Source: Pseudomonadota bacterium
Lineage (GTDB): Bacteria; Pseudomonadota; Gammaproteobacteria; Burkholderiales; Ferrovaceae
DNA: 38,648 bases
Assembly: GCA_021850135.1 (NCBI GenBank)
Contig: JAJZRV010000012.1
Coordinates: forward strand, 1 to 38,648
Reading direction: 5' to 3'
The position numbers were made by a program, and so were the translations under genes. The notes below the pieces were generated by a model. It was not told the origin of the DNA. It did no database searches and saw only the letters and a program-made list of their open reading frames with translations. Of the stretch, positions 2,898-9,865 are shown one piece after another. Position 1 is the stretch's first letter; every line of letters begins with the position of its first letter.

Positions 2898-4756
2898 TGT
2901 GTGGCATTGCCGGTTTTGCTGGCCGCGGTTCAGCCCACGATCTCAAGCTCATGACAGATGCCCTGCAGCACAGGGGGCCAGATGGTGAGGGGTTCTGGAT
3001 GGATTCCGCAAAGGGAATTCATCTGGGGCACCGTCGTCTTGCCGTAATTGATATTGCAGGCGGCAGGCAGCCCATGTGGACGCGTGACCAGCGTCTGGGG
3101 ATTGTATTTAACGGTGAAATATACAACCATGCCGCACTGAGAGTTGAACTGGAAGGTCTGGGTCATGTGTTTTCATCAGACCATTCCGATACCGAAGTGC
3201 TGCTCTACGGCTATCTTCAATGGGGAAGGGATCTCACGAAACGCCTTAATGGCATGTGGTCCTTCGCCTTATACGACAGATTGAAGGAAGTTATATTTTG
3301 CAGTCGCGATCGGGTAGGGAAAAAGCCCTTTTACTACACCCTTCAGAAAGATACATTTGCCTTCGCATCGGAACTGACGGCTTTGACAAGGCATCGTGAA
3401 GTTCAGGCCACGGTTTCAGCGCTTGCATTGAAAAAATATTTTGGGTACGGCTATATTCCCGCACCTTTATCGCTTTATGGAGAGATCAGCAAGCTTCCTG
3501 CAGGGTGTTCTCTCCTGTTCTCGTTGTCTGATCGTTCCATCAAGGTGGAGCGCTACTGGCAGTTTTCACTTGAACCAACGGATGAGCGCCCAGCCGGGTT
3601 TGAGGAGCGATGGACTGAAGAGCTTCGTCATTTGCTGGATGGCGCCGTGGCGCGAAGATTGGTTTCTGACGTTCCTCTCGGAGTGTTTCTGAGCGGAGGA
3701 ATAGATTCTTCAGCCATCGCCGCAAGTGCTTCGCGCCTGAAATCGGAGAGGCCCGGCCAATTAGCTACTTTCAGCATCGGGTTTGACGAAGATGAGTTCG
3801 ACGAATCACAGTATGCGCGCATGGTCGCGAAACATCTTGGAACGCAACATCATCCGGAACTGCTTTCTTTGGAGAAGGCAAGGGCGCTTATCCCTGAAAT
3901 TTTGGAGAAACTGGATGAGCCCATGTCTGACAGCTCCATTCTTCCCACGTTCCTTCTTTGCAAACACGCGCGAGAAAAAGTCACGGTCGCGTTGAGTGGC
4001 GACGGTGCCGATGAGCTTTTTGCCGGCTACGCGCCATTTCGGGCGCTGCGATGGGCCGAACGCTATCGAAAGATCGTTCCGTCGAAAATTCACACCGCCA
4101 TCAGGTTTCTGGTTGCGGCGATGCCCGTGCGTCACGGTTATATGAATCTCGATTTCAGGATCAAAAGAACGCTGCGGGGGCTGAGCTATCCAGAAAAACT
4201 CTGGAACCCCATGTGGATGAGCCCGTTGGATCGTCCGGAATTGGAACAGTTGTTTCAAGGACACGTTGATCTGGATGAGGTGTTCTCTGAAGCCGTAACA
4301 CTATGGAACACTTGTTCTGGCCTCAGCATTGAAGACCAGACCCTGCAGTTTTTTACGCGACTGTACCTTGAAAACGACATACTGACGAAAGTCGATCGCG
4401 CGAGCATGCTCAACTCCCTGGAGGTGCGCTCTCCATTTCTTGATATCGACCTCATCGATTTTGCGAGAAAAATTCCCTCTGAGTTCAAGATCCGAAACGG
4501 TGAAACAAAATACCTGCTGAAAAAGGCTGTTGCGCCAATGTTGCCCGCAGAAATATTGAGACGATCAAAGCAAGGCTTTGCCGTTCCCATGGCCAAGTGG
4601 TTTAAGGAAGCCTATTTGTCCGTGAGTACGGTGCCTAGACTTCCCGGGTTGTCCGTGAATTTTGTCCGTCATGTGCAATCCCTGCACCGTGATGGCAAAG
4701 CTAATTACCACGATTTCCTTTGGGGTTATCGTGTTTTGCAAGCCCATAACGGGTGA
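2897..4756 (+). CDS. asnB: Asparagine synthase (glutamine-hydrolysing)-like amidotransferase
   Basis: The 619-residue product has two domains. The N-terminal class II glutaminase begins MCGIAGFAG, so Cys2 becomes the N-terminal nucleophile; RGPDGEG, HRRLAVID and FNGEIYN follow. The synthetase domain has the ATP pyrophosphatase loop SGGIDSS at 266-272 and SGDGADELFAGY further on. It is longer than E. coli AsnB (about 554), in the range of AsnB paralogues found in capsule and O-antigen clusters, where WbpS-like members are thought to amidate sugar acids. Start and stop are coupled (TGATG) to the glycosyltransferase. Both active sites look intact. Whether it makes asparagine or amidates a glycan is open; the context favours the second. 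Confidence 0.88.
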   Translation: MCGIAGFAGRGSAHDLKLMTDALQHRGPDGEGFWMDSAKGIHLGHRRLAVIDIAGGRQPMWTRDQRLGIVFNGEIYNHAALRVELEGLGHVFSSDHSDTEVLLYGYLQWGRDLTKRLNGMWSFALYDRLKEVIFCSRDRVGKKPFYYTLQKDTFAFASELTALTRHREVQATVSALALKKYFGYGYIPAPLSLYGEISKLPAGCSLLFSLSDRSIKVERYWQFSLEPTDERPAGFEERWTEELRHLLDGAVARRLVSDVPLGVFLSGGIDSSAIAASASRLKSERPGQLATFSIGFDEDEFDESQYARMVAKHLGTQHHPELLSLEKARALIPEILEKLDEPMSDSSILPTFLLCKHAREKVTVALSGDGADELFAGYAPFRALRWAERYRKIVPSKIHTAIRFLVAAMPVRHGYMNLDFRIKRTLRGLSYPEKLWNPMWMSPLDRPELEQLFQGHVDLDEVFSEAVTLWNTCSGLSIEDQTLQFFTRLYLENDILTKVDRASMLNSLEVRSPFLDIDLIDFARKIPSEFKIRNGETKYLLKKAVAPMLPAEILRRSKQGFAVPMAKWFKEAYLSVSTVPRLPGLSVNFVRHVQSLHRDGKANYHDFLWGYRVLQAHNG

Positions 4757-4859
4757 TATCGTCAGCCGCCCCCAAAAAATGGCAGTTTTATTTCACGAGT
4801 ACCCACGCTATACGCCGAATTGATGGCCTATTTCCCCTTGTATTCCTGCTTTTGATTCG

Positions 4860-4888
4860 TTGACCACCGAAACGCCACACTATACATT
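4860..4888 (+). promoter_or_regulatory. Candidate sigma70 promoter for the higA-like gene
   Basis: TTGACC at 4860-4865, a 17-base spacer, and TACATT at 4883-4888. The -10 hexamer lies inside the left arm of the inverted repeat at 4882-4910, a typical arrangement for an autorepressed antitoxin gene. Confidence 0.6.
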
Positions 4889-4910
4889 CGATTCCAAGAA
4901 ATCGATGTAT
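4882..4910. promoter_or_regulatory. Inverted repeat, probable HigA operator
   Basis: ATACAT (4882-4887) and ATGTAT (4905-4910) are perfect mirror arms. Inside them CGATT (4889-4893) mirrors AATCG (4900-4904), shifted by one base. The element covers the -10 box and ends 26 bases before the start codon, where HigA-family repressors usually bind. Confidence 0.55.
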
Positions 4911-4935
4911 TAACCACTGGCTGGAGGTGCCGCGC

Positions 4936-5247
4936 ATGATCAAGTTAATCAGCCCGCAACATCCCGGAGAAACGCTCCGTGACCATGTACTCCCCGCCTT
5001 GGGACTCAATGTTACCCAAGCCGCAAATCAACTGGGTGTTACACGTGCAGCCTTGTCACGCGTTTTGAACGGGCGTGCTGCCATTTCTCCTGAAATGGCA
5101 CTACGCCTGGAGAAATGGCTTGAAAATGTACGCGGTGCCCGGGCTGATCTGTGGATTGCCGAACAGGCTTCTTATGATCTCTGGCAGGCACGTCGCAGGT
5201 TCAAACCCAAGGTGAAAGTCGCAAATGGACTGAAGTTGGCAGCATGA
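4936..5247 (+). CDS. higA: HigA-family (XRE) antitoxin-like regulator without HigB partner
   Basis: The ATG at 4936 is chosen because GGAGG (4923-4927) sits eight bases ahead; the in-frame GTG at 4927 overlaps that site. The protein is 103 residues. It opens with HPGETLRDHVLPALGL, the HigA/VapI signature, followed by a helix-turn-helix (TQAANQLGVTRAALSRVLNG) and ISPEMALRLEKW. The basic C-terminus (ARRRFKPKVKV) could contact DNA. HigA normally follows or precedes higB; here neither flank encodes a toxin. It is a solo antitoxin or a recruited transcription factor. The downstream gene is the DSF synthase, 79 bases away on the same strand, so co-transcription or regulation of rpfF is plausible but unproven. 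Confidence 0.85.
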   Translation: MIKLISPQHPGETLRDHVLPALGLNVTQAANQLGVTRAALSRVLNGRAAISPEMALRLEKWLENVRGARADLWIAEQASYDLWQARRRFKPKVKVANGLKLAA

Positions 5248-5251
5248 ATCC

Positions 5252-5313
5252 GAAACAGTTTCAGAAGTAGACAGATATCAATATTCAATCATCTAAATTA
5301 ATGCATCTGAAAC
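5252..5313. promoter_or_regulatory. Inverted repeats in the rpfF leader
   Basis: GAAAC-A-GTTTC (5252-5262) is a small perfect palindrome. GTTTCAG (5258-5264) also pairs perfectly with CTGAAAC (5307-5313), which directly abuts the rpfF ribosome site AAGGAGAGG (5314-5322). These could be protein sites or a long-range RNA stem next to the ribosome site. No clear -35/-10 pair was found here. Confidence 0.35.
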
Positions 5314-5326
5314 AAGGAGAGGAAGA

Positions 5327-6223
5327 ATGGAACTCATTTCAGACACGAAAACTTTGCTTGATGCCAATTACTCACAAATGCGTACGCGTTTTGATTCCGA
5401 ATCTGGAATTCTTTGGACATTATTGGACCAGGATGCCGTACCTTGCGTTACACCTGATCTTCTGAGCGAGTTGCAGCATCATCATGAGGCCATTGAAACC
5501 AGTGGCGGACAGCTTTGGATTGGGGAGCAGCCATGTAATGTGCGTTACTCAGTCATGGCTTCCCTGACGCCTGGTGTATTCAACCTCGGCGGGCAGCTGT
5601 CGCTTTTTCGCGAGCTTATTAGGGCAAAAAATCGGGACGCATTGCTGCATTACGGCGTCGAGTGCATCAAGGTGCTTTTTCCAAGAATTAACCATTTTTA
5701 CCTTCCATTGACGACAATCGCGCTCGTACAGGGCGATGCTCTCGGGGGAGGACTTGAAGGTGTCTTGGTGAGCGATGTGGTGATTGCCGAACGCGGCGCC
5801 CAAATGGGTTTTCCAGAAATTCTGTTTAATTTGTTCCCTGGGATGGGTGCCTATAGCCTGCTCGCCAGAAAAGTCGGCACGGCAGTTGCAGAAAAAATGA
5901 TGCTGAGCGGGAAGATTTACGCGGCAGAGGAGCTGCATGCCATGGGTGTAGTGGACGTGCTTGCCGAACCCGGCGCTGGTGTACAGGCCGTTTATGACTA
6001 TGTCAAAAAGCAGGAACGGCGTGCCAATGGCTTCATGGCGGTGCAACAGGTTCGTCAGCGCTTCAATCCGGTAACCTACGAAGAGATGATGGACGTGGTC
6101 CGCATCTGGGTCGACGCGGCGCTGCGGTTGACTGAAAAGGACCTCAAGGTCATGGACAGATTTGTACGATCCCAGGAGAAGGCTTTTCTACACCAGAAAG
6201 AACAAGAATACCTTATTGCGTAG
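5327..6223 (+). CDS. rpfF: RpfF, DSF (cis-2-unsaturated fatty acid) synthase, crotonase superfamily
   Basis: The start is fixed by AAGGAGAGG four bases upstream. The 298-residue protein matches the RpfF branch of the enoyl-CoA hydratase superfamily: VQGDALGGGLEG forms the oxyanion hole and AQMGFPEILFNLFPGMGAYS follows. Glu144 and Glu164 stand where Xanthomonas RpfF has its catalytic Glu141 and Glu161. Known family members dehydrate and hydrolyse 3-hydroxyacyl-ACP to release DSF-type signals. The gene converges on rpfC, its stop lying 11 bases inside the rpfC coding end, the orientation known from Xanthomonas. RpfC is known to bind and restrain RpfF, so a protein-level brake is expected. No rpfB was seen. 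The signal's chain length and branching cannot be predicted. Confidence 0.93.
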   Translation: MELISDTKTLLDANYSQMRTRFDSESGILWTLLDQDAVPCVTPDLLSELQHHHEAIETSGGQLWIGEQPCNVRYSVMASLTPGVFNLGGQLSLFRELIRAKNRDALLHYGVECIKVLFPRINHFYLPLTTIALVQGDALGGGLEGVLVSDVVIAERGAQMGFPEILFNLFPGMGAYSLLARKVGTAVAEKMMLSGKIYAAEELHAMGVVDVLAEPGAGVQAVYDYVKKQERRANGFMAVQQVRQRFNPVTYEEMMDVVRIWVDAALRLTEKDLKVMDRFVRSQEKAFLHQKEQEYLIA

Positions 6224-8756
6224 AAGAGGGGAGCAGCGAATCGCTCTCAGGCTTGCTCAGGTAGCGAGTTAAAGCTTCCTGGGTGGTCTTGAAAGTGTGC
6301 TGTGCTTCAGAAAGCATGGCCTCCGCATTGGCCGCGATACCGCTTGCGCCTATCTGCATGATATTGCCGCAGATAAGGTGTAGTGCCTCCGCGCCAATGT
6401 TTCCGGCACTTCCCTTTATGGTATGCGCCAGTTCAAGGAATGCATCGTGGTCATGATGGGCTAACGCATGCCGCATGGCCTCGAGCAGCTTTTCTGTTTC
6501 AGAAATGAACCCATGAATCACTATGGGCATGAAGTCATCCTGCCCTTCGCCAAGAAGCTCCAGATGCCGCAAAGTCGCTTCTCTGATCAAGGGCTGTTGT
6601 TCAGAAATGTCGGGGTTATTGTGAGGCCCATCAAATTCAGCAGGGTCTTTGCGCGTTTCAGTCGAAGTCAGGTTACTGATTTTTTCAAGAAGAGAAACAG
6701 CATCGACAGGTTTGCTCATGTAGGCATCTGCCCCGGCCTCCTCACATTCCTGCATGGCTTCAGTGGTTGCATTTGCGGTCAGGACGATGACCGGGGTCGG
6801 AGGTTTTTGGCGTGAGGTTGCACGGTGAATTTTTAGGACATCCAATCCGCCCATGAGTGGCATATTCATGTCCAGAATGATCAACCCATAATGACCGTTT
6901 TCGAGTTTATCAAGCGCTTCTTCGCCATTTTCGGCAAGATCAACCCTGTGTCCACCGTACTCCAGAATCTTGGAAATGATCTTTCTGCTGGTTCCATTAT
7001 CTTCTGCAAGTAAAATAGACGTGCCCGTTTTCTCCAGTGTGCTACGTTGGTAATGCTCTTTGAATGAAATGACACCCTGCTGTGGTTGAGGGGCCATAAT
7101 GCCATGCAGCGCGTTGAAAAGGAGCGTCTTGTCCACTGGCGATCGTAGCAGGCAAGAGTAACCCATTTCCAGAAGGTCTTTTTCATCCAGTCCCTGAAGG
7201 TCTGCGGTAAGCCAGATCAGCGATATCTCCCTGGACGGGCATGCTTCTACAACACGGCTCGCAAATTCGCCAGCATTTATTCCAAGATGCTGTGGGCTGC
7301 ACAAAACGATAGTCGCCTTATGCTGGCTGGCTGGTAACCGTTCGAGGTGAGAAAAAAAATGTGGAAGCGCAATCTCGTGCTGAAATTGGACACCCCAACC
7401 ATTCAAATATTCGCCAAGGGTTTCTCTTTCACTGGATCGCATACCCAGGGTAATAACGCGAAGTTGCCCCAATGCACGAGGTGCATCTGAAAGTTTTGAG
7501 GCAGGTTGCTTGTCAAAAGGGAGTTCAAACCAGAAGACGCTGCCAACGCCGGGTTCGCTTTGGAGCCCCATCTCGCCCCCCATGAGACCCGCAAGTTGTC
7601 GTGAGATGGTCGTTCCCAATCCACTACCACCGTACTGACGCGAGATATCAGTGCTTGCCTGGGTAAAACTGTCAAAAATTGATTTTTGCGCCTCGGGTGA
7701 AATCCCTATGCCTGTATCGATGACTTCAAATCGGATTCGAGTGCTTGTTCCGTCTTGTTGCGACGTGCTAACGCGTAATTCCACGCTGCCTTTATTGGTG
7801 AATTTAATGGCATTCCCGACCAGGTTGATGATGATCTGACGCAAGTGAAGCGAGTCTCCCCGCAGCAAGAAGCATGTCTCAGAGCTAAAGCGTACGTCGA
7901 GTCGTAATCCCTTAAGGCGCGCCTGGGATTTGAACATCTCAAGCGTACCTCTTACTAACTGGTGCAAATCAAAGTCTACCTTTTCACTGGCCAGCTTACC
8001 GCTTTCAATCTTCGCAAAGTCAAGGACGTTTTCAATCAGCTGTAGCAGCGTCTGCGCTGATGTCTTCAGGGTATTGACCAGATCAAATTGTTCGCCATTG
8101 AGCGGTGTAGTTGTCAGTAGGTCGCTCGTTCCAATGACCCCATTGAGTGGCGTACGCATCTCATGGCTCATATGGGCGAGAAAGCGGCTTTTTGCCTGAT
8201 TTGCCTCCTGAGCCGCACGTACCGCATGATTCAGCTGGTTGAGAAGCTTCAGGAGGTAGGGTGGAATGAGCGTAAGCGTAAGCAGCAATCCAAAGGCTAG
8301 CCTGGGTTGTGATAACCAGAATGGGTTTTGCGTAACAACGAGGGAGAAGCCCAGCAAGCTAAAAATATACGATCCAATGAGGGAGGGGACACCGTATCTA
8401 ATCCCATTGCCGACAATGACCCACAGATAAATCCCATAAAACAAATAGCCTGCTTCCTGCAAATTCAGCATGACGTAGGTGACTGCACCAATATCCAAAA
8501 CCATGGCCAGCCATTGCCGTTTTCTCGAGCTGATTCTGTTGATCAAAACAATAAGCAGCAAACCTATGGACAACAAAAGCCAAAATTCTGAAAACGTATA
8601 AACCTTTTTCGGAATGACCTGCTGCGGGTCTAGAAGATTTTCTACAGTCAGGTAAAGCAGAATGAAAAATGAGAATGTGACTCTGAGCACGACTTGCTCA
8701 TGCTCACCTTCGCGCTCTCTCACTCTTTGAATGAAATAGCGAATTTTTTCATTCAT
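6213..8756 (-). CDS. rpfC: RpfC-like membrane hybrid sensor kinase with HPt, plus a degenerate receiver
   Basis: The 847-residue order is: five or six membrane helices (about 22-175) as DSF input module; HisKA with FLAHMSHEMRTPLNG and phospho-acceptor His198; HATPase with NLVGNAIKFT (N box), DTGIGIS (347-353) and GGSGLG; a degenerate receiver (about 430-556); a true receiver ending its third strand at LIILDMNMP (Asp629) with Lys682; and an HPt domain with AHTIKGSAGN (His778). Xanthomonas RpfC is about 726 residues with one receiver, so the difference matches the extra domain. The start overlaps the rpfG stop (ATGA), giving translational coupling. The expected relay is His198 to Asp629 to His778 to RpfG Asp68. 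Base composition is clearly more AT-rich than in rpfG. Confidence 0.92.
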   Translation of the reverse strand: MNEKIRYFIQRVREREGEHEQVVLRVTFSFFILLYLTVENLLDPQQVIPKKVYTFSEFWLLLSIGLLLIVLINRISSRKRQWLAMVLDIGAVTYVMLNLQEAGYLFYGIYLWVIVGNGIRYGVPSLIGSYIFSLLGFSLVVTQNPFWLSQPRLAFGLLLTLTLIPPYLLKLLNQLNHAVRAAQEANQAKSRFLAHMSHEMRTPLNGVIGTSDLLTTTPLNGEQFDLVNTLKTSAQTLLQLIENVLDFAKIESGKLASEKVDFDLHQLVRGTLEMFKSQARLKGLRLDVRFSSETCFLLRGDSLHLRQIIINLVGNAIKFTNKGSVELRVSTSQQDGTSTRIRFEVIDTGIGISPEAQKSIFDSFTQASTDISRQYGGSGLGTTISRQLAGLMGGEMGLQSEPGVGSVFWFELPFDKQPASKLSDAPRALGQLRVITLGMRSSERETLGEYLNGWGVQFQHEIALPHFFSHLERLPASQHKATIVLCSPQHLGINAGEFASRVVEACPSREISLIWLTADLQGLDEKDLLEMGYSCLLRSPVDKTLLFNALHGIMAPQPQQGVISFKEHYQRSTLEKTGTSILLAEDNGTSRKIISKILEYGGHRVDLAENGEEALDKLENGHYGLIILDMNMPLMGGLDVLKIHRATSRQKPPTPVIVLTANATTEAMQECEEAGADAYMSKPVDAVSLLEKISNLTSTETRKDPAEFDGPHNNPDISEQQPLIREATLRHLELLGEGQDDFMPIVIHGFISETEKLLEAMRHALAHHDHDAFLELAHTIKGSAGNIGAEALHLICGNIMQIGASGIAANAEAMLSEAQHTFKTTQEALTRYLSKPESDSLLPSSTQ

Positions 8757-9865
8757 TGAATCACCTTGATCGAAGGCGTCGTCATCGTGTCCCGAAGTTG
8801 TTGCTGCACCAGGCTGATCTTGCTGAACTGGGCAATGAAGGCGTCCACGCAGGCCGGGTCGAAATGCTTGTTGCGGTTGGCCGAAAGGTAGGCCAAGGCA
8901 TCATCGTTGGACCACGCTTTTTTATAGGGCCGCACCGAGGTCAAGGCGTCAAAGACGTCGGCCACCGCGACAATGCGGGCTTCAAGCGCGATGTCATTGC
9001 CCTTCAACCCCTGGGGATAGCCGCTGCCATCGTATTTTTCGTGGTGTCCCAGGGCGATTTGCGCGCCCTGGATGAGAATGTTGGAGGGACTTTCCTTGAG
9101 AATCTTGTAACCGATCATGGGATGGTTCTTCATCACTTCGAACTCTTCAGAAGTCAGGCGGCCCGGCTTGAGCAGGATCTGGTCAGGGATGCCGATCTTG
9201 CCGATATCGTGCATGGGGGCGGCCATCTCGATGAGCTCGCAGCGTGTCTGGTTAAGGCCGATCCCCTCTGCAATCAGGCGGGAATAACGCGCCATTCTCA
9301 GAATATGATTGCCCGTTTCTGCGTCCCGAAATTCGCCCGCCTTGGCAAGGCAGTACAGGGTTTCCTGTTCCCGCTCGCGGATTTGTTGGGTTGCCTTGTA
9401 GACGGCATGTTCGAGGTCCTGCGAATGCGCCTGCAGGTTCTTTTCATGCTGGCGCAGCACCAGCAGATTGCGGCAACGCACGCGACATTCGTAAGGGTCG
9501 ATGGGCTTGGTCATGAAATCCGTTGCCCCGGCATCCAGGGCACCGTAGCGGATGCCCAGCTCGTCGTGCGATGTGATGACGATGATTGGAATCGTTTCCA
9601 GGGAGGGGATCTGGCGAATCGCGATGATCACATCCAACCCGGACATTTCCTTCATCCTGTAGTCCACCAGGATCAGGTCGGGCTGATTCCACTGGATCCA
9701 TTCCAATGACTGCAGCGGGGAGGGGAAAGTATGCGTGACGATGTCGCTTTGAATGCTGCGAACGATCTTGTCGAGAATGACTCGACTGGTGAATTCGTCG
9801 TCAATGATGGCGACCACCGGCGGGGCCTGATGGACGGCACTAGGCGCGGATTGCTGGAATGACAT
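8753..9865 (-). CDS. rpfG: RpfG-like response regulator with HD-GYP c-di-GMP phosphodiesterase
   Basis: The 370-residue product has a receiver domain (about 17-135: acidic IIDDE at 20-24, phospho-acceptor Asp68 in LILVDYR, Lys120 in MTKP), a coiled linker (140-170), and an HD-GYP domain with MHDIGKIGIP (His219-Asp220) and HHEKYDGSGYPQGLKG (GYP at 282-284). All known metal and substrate residues appear present, so it should hydrolyse c-di-GMP when phosphorylated. Ribosome site GAGGGGA precedes the ATG. It is the first gene of rpfG-rpfC, read from the promoter at 9909-9937. The pair converges on rpfF, as in the rpfGHC/rpfF layout of Xanthomonas but without rpfH. Confidence 0.93.
   Translation of the reverse strand: MSFQQSAPSAVHQAPPVVAIIDDEFTSRVILDKIVRSIQSDIVTHTFPSPLQSLEWIQWNQPDLILVDYRMKEMSGLDVIIAIRQIPSLETIPIIVITSHDELGIRYGALDAGATDFMTKPIDPYECRVRCRNLLVLRQHEKNLQAHSQDLEHAVYKATQQIREREQETLYCLAKAGEFRDAETGNHILRMARYSRLIAEGIGLNQTRCELIEMAAPMHDIGKIGIPDQILLKPGRLTSEEFEVMKNHPMIGYKILKESPSNILIQGAQIALGHHEKYDGSGYPQGLKGNDIALEARIVAVADVFDALTSVRPYKKAWSNDDALAYLSANRNKHFDPACVDAFIAQFSKISLVQQQLRDTMTTPSIKVIQ

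Follow-up and report, generated by a model that had tools for sequence, protein, structure and literature searches.

The higA-rpfF Locus

The window, by which is meant the whole 38,648-nucleotide stretch of DNA that was analyzed, carries a gene for a HigA-family repressor and, next on the same strand, a homologue of rpfF, the gene for the synthase of diffusible signal factor (DSF) (Table 1). This arrangement had been proposed in an earlier, sequence-only reading of the same DNA, and it holds: the rpfF homologue starts at an ATG 79 bases past the end of the repressor gene. An asparagine synthase gene and a GT2 glycosyltransferase gene lie upstream of higA. On the other side, genes for an rpfC-like kinase and an rpfG-like response regulator run toward rpfF. 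The 3′ ends of rpfF and the rpfC-like gene overlap by 11 bases on opposite strands (6213-6223), and the rpfG-like gene in turn shares four bases with the rpfC-like gene (8753-8756).

Table 1. Coordinates of genes and candidate control elements around higA and rpfF in the window.
Feature	Position	Strand	Description
O2, candidate second HigA-type site	4797-4816	+	GAGTACCCACGCTATACGCC; 72 bp upstream of O1; motif score 15.7 bits
Promoter TTGACC-17-TACATT	4860-4888	+	From consensus scan; -35 TTGACC, 17-base spacer, -10 TACATT
O1, probable HigA operator	4869-4888	+	GAAACGCCACACTATACATT; 17-bp palindromic core 4869-4885; covers spacer and -10
Inverted repeat	4882-4910	+	ATACATTCGATT / AATCGATGTAT; one bulged base; over -10 and probable start site
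higA	4936-5247	+	103 aa; ATG 4936, stop to 5247; HigA-family XRE repressor without toxin; C-terminal end LKLAA
higA-rpfF gap	5248-5326	+	79 bases; ribosome-binding AAGGAG 5314-5319
rpfF-like DSF synthase	5327-6223	+	298 aa; crotonase family; ATG 5327
rpfC-like hybrid histidine kinase	6213-8756	-	HisKA-HATPase-REC-Hpt; convergent with rpfF
rpfG-like response regulator	8753-9865	-	HD domain (HD_5); from family search

The higA product scores 89.2 bits against TIGR02607 (antidote_HigA; curated cut-off 47.7), which places it in the HigA family, and 31.8 bits against PF01381 (cut-off 23), the XRE-type helix-turn-helix. By homology, the gene that follows encodes an RpfF-type DSF synthase. A ten-sequence profile, made of the window protein plus nine relatives, matches RpfF of Xanthomonas (3m6m) at E 1.4e-66, and Glu144 and Glu164, which stand 20 residues apart, are invariant in ten aligned relatives and align with glutamates of 3m6m. 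Xanthomonas RpfF has a catalytic glutamate pair with this spacing, E141/E161, to which E144/E164 would correspond. The window protein lies above the PRK08788 crotonase cut-off (372.7 vs 177 bits) and below the NCBIfam RpfF equivalog cut-off NF053515 (223 vs 550 bits). The gene order rpfF, then rpfC and rpfG on the opposite strand, recurs in eight of the nine related loci analyzed, the ninth (G021) ending after rpfF; three loci of one genus, g3, have an extra reverse-strand ORF between rpfF and rpfC.

Distribution and Descent of the Gene Pair

A search of 120 relatives (G000-G119, G000 being the window genome) returned an RpfF match at E ≤ 1e-30 in 28 genomes. The window's family, f1, accounts for 32 of the genomes searched, and nine of these carry a close rpfF (at least 68% identity); a tenth, G022, has a distant one (48%). 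The sequence-only reading had proposed looking for the adjacency in related genomes, and it extends well past the window: higA stands directly ahead of rpfF in six of the nine f1 genomes with a close rpfF, spread over three genera (G000 and G004 in g1, G009 in g6, and G011, G016 and G021 in g8). These six genomes are 85-99% complete, and the intergenic gap measures 46-79 bases. The other three, G006, G013 and G018, all of genus g3, have no higA before rpfF. Among named RpfF loci, judged on the best 80 of at least 573 confirmed, HigA lies ahead of rpfF in two, and both contigs are those of G016 and G021; in four of the other 78 (L089, L090, L097, L101) fewer than 350 bases lie upstream, too short to judge. 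In a sample of 399 genomes from the order, no HigA match outside f1 (E ≤ 1e-34) exceeds 75% identity or belongs to the rpfF-linked clade.

The genes upstream of the pair vary. A GT87 gene lies ahead of higA in G021, a 431-aa ORF separates GT87 from higA in G011, and in G006 a GT87 gene is followed after 124 bases by rpfF itself. One to several GT87 glycosyltransferases are seen upstream in relatives (L052 and L055 in the family search; L050, L051, L053 and L057 by BLAST), and L052 and L055 also have T2SSF-type (tad-like) genes upstream of rpfF or higA.

The six rpfF-linked proteins form one clade (support 100/99.8) in a tree built from 36 HigAs, 24 of them encoded beside HigB. All six loci go back to a single event and hence are not independent. 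Of the 15 genome pairs, 12 show a higher identity for HigA than for RpfF; in the other three, all involving G009, HigA identity is slightly the lower of the two. The RpfF tree, in which the neighbors are Gallionellaceae, nests g3 among the genomes with higA and rejects a single clade of the six (AU p 0.032). A tree of RpfC plus RpfG does not reject the six as one clade (p 0.17; G021 left out, since its contig ends). The g3 genomes may have lost higA or may be an outgroup.

A Conserved Antitoxin With No HigB Found

All six rpfF-linked HigAs are exactly 103 aa long. Their genes differ by a dN of 0.08-0.29, and dS is 1.19-4.1 in the eight of 15 genome pairs for which it could be computed (seven could not); the rpfF-linked higA is kept under purifying selection. 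This bears on the idea that higA is a functionless, degenerating higBA remnant that sits beside rpfF by accident. The absence of the toxin, the restriction of the pair to one family in the searches made, and its loss or absence in g3 would all suit such a remnant. Constant length in all six, a dN far below dS where both are available, and the conserved operator and promoter spacing described below speak against it, and this explanation is already disfavored as very improbable.

The sequence-only reading had described the gene as a HigA without a HigB partner, and the genome searches, which covered the single toxin family PF05015 (E ≤ 0.001), agree. In the window, the interval that separates higA from the gene upstream contains no higB, so the locus lacks the adjacent PF05015 HigB that marks a type II HigBA module. 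No HigB was found in the window genome (1.78 Mb, 87.5% complete), in its 99%-complete congener G004 or in G021. The remaining higA-rpfF genomes yielded four matches, two in G016, one in G011 and one, below the cut-off, in G009, and each of the four adjoins its own, different HigA. A hidden HigB partner was considered and set aside: this search found none in the window's own genome, and those in the other higA-rpfF genomes pair with other HigAs.

The protein itself has changed where toxin would bind. In GraA, the antitoxin of Pseudomonas putida GraTA, residues R7, E13, E18, D64, T66 and N72 touch the toxin GraT, with further contacts through I9, I14, F19, M23, L63, F69 and L73 (PMC6393540). The first set aligns with window positions 6, 12, 17, 63, 69 and 75 and the second with 8, 13, 18, 22, 62, 72 and 76; GraA is a distant homologue, and the contact map is hence indirect. 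The comparison used the 53 positions at which at least 80% of the HigB-linked HigAs, 24 in all, agree, and a position was called lost when at most one of the six rpfF-linked proteins keeps it, a rule chosen after the alignment had been seen. Six positions are lost (6, 8, 13, 17, 63 and 68), none of them in the recognition helix. They comprise five of seven conserved toxin contacts (6, 8, 13, 17 and 63) and one of the 46 remaining conserved positions (Fisher p 4e-5 at the 80% threshold; with thresholds of 70, 75 and 90%, p is 0.0008, 0.0002 and 0.023), with the reservation that these p values count positions and not independent events, since the six HigAs share one stem branch. Position 17 is D in 22 of the 24 HigB-linked proteins and H, R or K in all six rpfF-linked ones. 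In the window HigA, four contacts are replaced (6, 8, 17 and 63), as is position 68, and T13 is kept; judged through the GraA alignment, the protein no longer appears to carry the toxin-binding surface. Four of the 17 most divergent positions are contacts, and many of the others lie in the variable tail. The DNA-recognition region (36-46) is identical in five of the six proteins; the single change, A38V in G009, falls at a position whose GraA counterpart touches DNA. At the level of sequence, the predicted toxin-contact residues are mostly lost and the DNA-contact helix is kept.

Loss of contacts was also scored in HigAs that are not beside rpfF and for which no adjacent HigB was found: L036, L043 and L152 lose none and L157 loses one, while L046 and L049 were excluded for divergent or cut N-termini. 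Some toxin-linked proteins deviate as well, namely L156 at contacts 13 and 17 (also H17), L141 at four contacts, and L038, L048 and L151 at two each. L036 (1501-1800, G073) and L152 (1501-1800, G285), which are nearly identical to each other, keep all conserved contacts although no neighboring HigB was found for either, and the gene ahead of each resembles, by eye, a tyrosine recombinase of the integron-integrase kind. Perhaps these are recently separated antitoxins, or their toxins lie elsewhere.

These observations bear on two explanations in which HigA still serves as an antitoxin. One is anti-addiction, a role suggested for orphan antitoxins in general (PMC7354431), in which HigA would neutralize HigBs from other loci or from incoming elements. 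HigB matches do occur in three of the six genomes, one of them under the cut-off, and single contact changes also occur in toxin-linked HigAs such as L156. Each HigB found has its own HigA, though, none was found in the other three genomes, and most of the conserved residues aligned to GraT contacts are lost together, including the change of D17 to H, R or K, all of which makes this role quite improbable. The second explanation is a working toxin-antitoxin pair whose toxin, of an unrecognized family, lies elsewhere in the genome; the search covered PF05015 only, and the window genome is 87.5% complete. With no PF05015 protein in the nearly complete G004, no higB next to the window higA and an altered toxin face, such a pair is scarcely credible.

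The tail of the protein has a character of its own. The window HigA ends (5224-5244) in N97, K100 and then L/I-A-A, a tail common to all six rpfF-linked HigAs and, as a whole, not found in the toxin-linked ones. A C-terminal LAA or IAA occurs in six of six rpfF-linked and in six of 24 HigB-linked proteins. Two C-terminal alanines are described as a preference of ClpXP (PMC4963847), and the ends of the six HigAs are, speculatively, a plausible protease signal.

Promoter and Candidate Operators

The promoter with a 17-base spacer that had been claimed ahead of higA is present. It is the sole consensus match in 4700-5400, a region whose shuffles average 1.0 match, so that the window promoter alone does not rise above chance; the call is supported by its recurrence, as TTGACC-17-TACANT, at the same place in all six higA-rpfF loci, 75-76 bases before the higA ATG.

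A motif for HigA binding was learned by expectation-maximization from DNA ahead of higB in toxin-linked loci only. Of 29 loci examined, 18 had a usable higB start and one, L038, was added by hand, for a total of 19; the ten omitted were those in which HigB was not found or its start was not aligned. The resulting motif is 20 bases long (GTATCGCTACGCTATACACT) and lies 4-10 bases ahead of higB in 17 of the 19 loci; its first 17 columns are palindromic (correlation 0.82, 18 sites). When both strands of the window were scanned (77,258 positions), O1 came first with 21.3 bits and O2 second, and the next site reached 12.7 bits. Leaving out each of the 18 sites in turn kept O1 first in 18 of 18 runs and O2 second in 17, third in the other, and removal of six similar training sites together made the two swap rank. 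Of 2000 motifs with permuted columns, a single one had its two best sites in this intergenic region, and 38 had one or both of them there. The motif contains the -10, so promoter descent alone would also score. With the left ten columns, which lie outside the -10, O1 ranks 4th and O2 171st of the 77,258 positions, and O2 is thus mostly supported by the right half of the motif.

O1 is conserved with the gene pair. In each of the six loci it scores highest over the 10-20 kb that were scanned and starts 66-67 bases before the HigA ATG; it is weakest in G009 (9.5 bits). A counterpart of O2 lies 71-72 bases above O1 in G000 (15.7 bits), G016 (10.9), G021 (21.4) and G011 (8.2); the motif scan of the six loci found none in G004 and G009. 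No motif site was found within 300 bases of the three g3 rpfF genes or that of G055, where the best score is at most 0.2 bits.

The sequence-only reading had placed the operator elsewhere, in the inverted repeat at 4882-4910 that encloses the -10. The repeat is real in the window (z -3.4 as a single strand; 0 of 200 shuffles as good), and an ungapped repeat finder misses it on account of its bulged base. The five homologous leaders, folded as DNA, give z -0.2 to -1.4. With a significant stem in the window genome only, of the six leaders, the repeat was rejected as a conserved operator or RNA hairpin, and among the six higA-rpfF loci it is private to this genome. The conserved palindrome at 4869-4885, whose end overlaps the margin of the repeat, is the better operator candidate.

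Pattern scans, with both patterns written with O1 in view, were used to see how far such sites extend. At up to two mismatches over nine genomes, O1 is the sole match in G000, G004, G016, G021 and G011; G009 and G006 have one unrelated two-mismatch site each, and the weak O1 of G009 is unmatched. A control pattern gave two matches over the nine genomes. A wide HigA regulon was rejected, as at up to three mismatches the window genome holds one site against two for the control pattern. With O1 alone genome-wide in five of six genomes, HigA, if it binds, would act mainly on its own promoter. Direct action on rpfF from a HigA site within the gap was likewise rejected: the highest score there is -6.9 bits in the window, and none of the other five loci exceeds 5.3. 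Since the probable operator is not repeated in the gap, any effect of HigA on rpfF would go through the promoter upstream of both genes.

That route presupposes co-transcription, and the main competing account is that HigA autoregulates only itself while rpfF uses its own, unrecognized promoter within the gap or higA, the two being neighbors by linkage. A separate rpfF promoter unaffected by HigA had been named beforehand as one of three findings that would undo the proposal; the other two, an adjacency confined to this genome and a HigB elsewhere that pairs with this HigA, did not turn up in the genome and PF05015 searches above. Scanning the coding strand of the six loci gave no consensus promoter within higA or the gap in any of them, and in the window locus no terminator was found there. 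The promoter result is weak evidence for co-transcription, because the four rpfF genes without higA (three in g3 and that of G055) have no consensus promoter within 200 bp either, so that unrecognized promoters or read-through must exist in such genes; the gap of 79 bases, with no overlap of the genes, also leaves room for a promoter of its own. Against this account stands the retention of the pair across three genera while the upstream genes differ, and taken together it is unlikely.

A Probable Domesticated Repressor of DSF Synthesis

The best reading of the locus is that a higBA module lost its toxin and that what remains of it, the autorepressor with its operator, now controls higA and rpfF as one operon. 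We put the probability that this is a toxin-less, domesticated HigA forming an autorepressed two-gene operon with the DSF synthase at roughly 70%, and infer from the arrangement of sites and genes that HigA represses rpfF. HigA dimers would bind O1, and also O2 where it is present, and the bound protein would block polymerase at the shared promoter, capping transcription of both higA and rpfF. With the toxin gone, the only remaining input would be the level of HigA, that is, the balance of its synthesis and turnover. DSF synthase output would then be set by negative feedback, a loop that might open when HigA is degraded, although confidence in this last step is low.

A more far-reaching version of the domesticated-repressor reading is tentative at best. 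It holds that the antitoxin has been fully domesticated as a dedicated rheostat of the quorum-signal synthase, its toxin face re-purposed (the clade has new residues in common at positions 17, 63, 97 and 100), with regulated proteolysis through the LAA tail setting DSF output. If true, stress or growth state would feed into DSF output, and protein turnover would act instead of, or atop, control by RpfC.

The history of this orphan antitoxin would be traceable, beginning with toxin-linked relatives, passing through the loss of the toxin and of most conserved contacts, and ending in a conserved pair of operator and target. It would offer a testable path for the recruitment of new regulators from toxin-antitoxin modules into bacterial networks, here into the control of DSF signaling, and the locus provides a clean test of how HigA acts when no toxin is left to relieve repression.

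Comparison With Known Systems

In literature on rpfF or diffusible signal factor together with antitoxin, mostly non-subscription papers, no title describes a HigA-rpfF link; in one paper rpfF and HigA appear solely in the reference list (PMC7650669). Orphan antitoxins are commonly seen as remnants or anti-addiction devices (PMC7354431).

The same set of DSF genes is found in other rpfF-rpfC-rpfG clusters, among them those of Xanthomonas (RpfF 3m6m), G055, which shares the convergent rpfF/rpfC order, and the Gallionellaceae loci L065, L066 and L071, where RpfC and RpfG homologues were found. These clusters differ from the window in the repressor: no HigA was found in 78 of the best 80 named loci (of at least 573), four of which have too short an upstream stretch to judge.

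Toxin-linked higBA modules of related families (L156 in G301, L041 and L158) have a closely similar promoter and operator, the L156 promoter being the closest; its site reads GAAACGCTACACTATACATT, against GAAACGCCACACTATACATT for O1 in the window. The spacing is different: in the toxin-linked modules the site lies 6-9 bases before higB, whereas in the window the higA start codon follows the first base of O1 by 67 bases.

Solved homologues that repress their own promoters are GraA and P. aeruginosa HigA (PMC6393540; PMC6987408). In P. putida GraTA (6f8s, 6f8h), repression by two antitoxin dimers, bound cooperatively to the operator, is lifted by the GraT toxin (PMC6393540). The likeness is that of a HigA-family antitoxin repressing its own promoter. 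The window system, by contrast, would have no toxin input, and most of the conserved residues aligned to those that hold GraT are replaced.

Two systems are precedents for the wiring. In Caulobacter crescentus, higBA was inserted before higX, so that the higBA promoter landed ahead of a resident gene and now drives it; there, the toxin is retained, LexA dominates and the target is a transcription factor (PMC13384398), whereas in the window the toxin has been lost and a signal synthase is the predicted target. In P. aeruginosa, HigA is reported to repress not only higBA but also mvfR, a gene of quorum sensing that carries a copy of the palindromic HigA operator (TTAAC GTTAA); that HigA comes from an intact higBA and acts in trans (PMC6987408). 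In the window, no toxin was found, the predicted target is the next gene in the same direction, and the candidate operator has the form GTA..GC-N3-GC.TAC.
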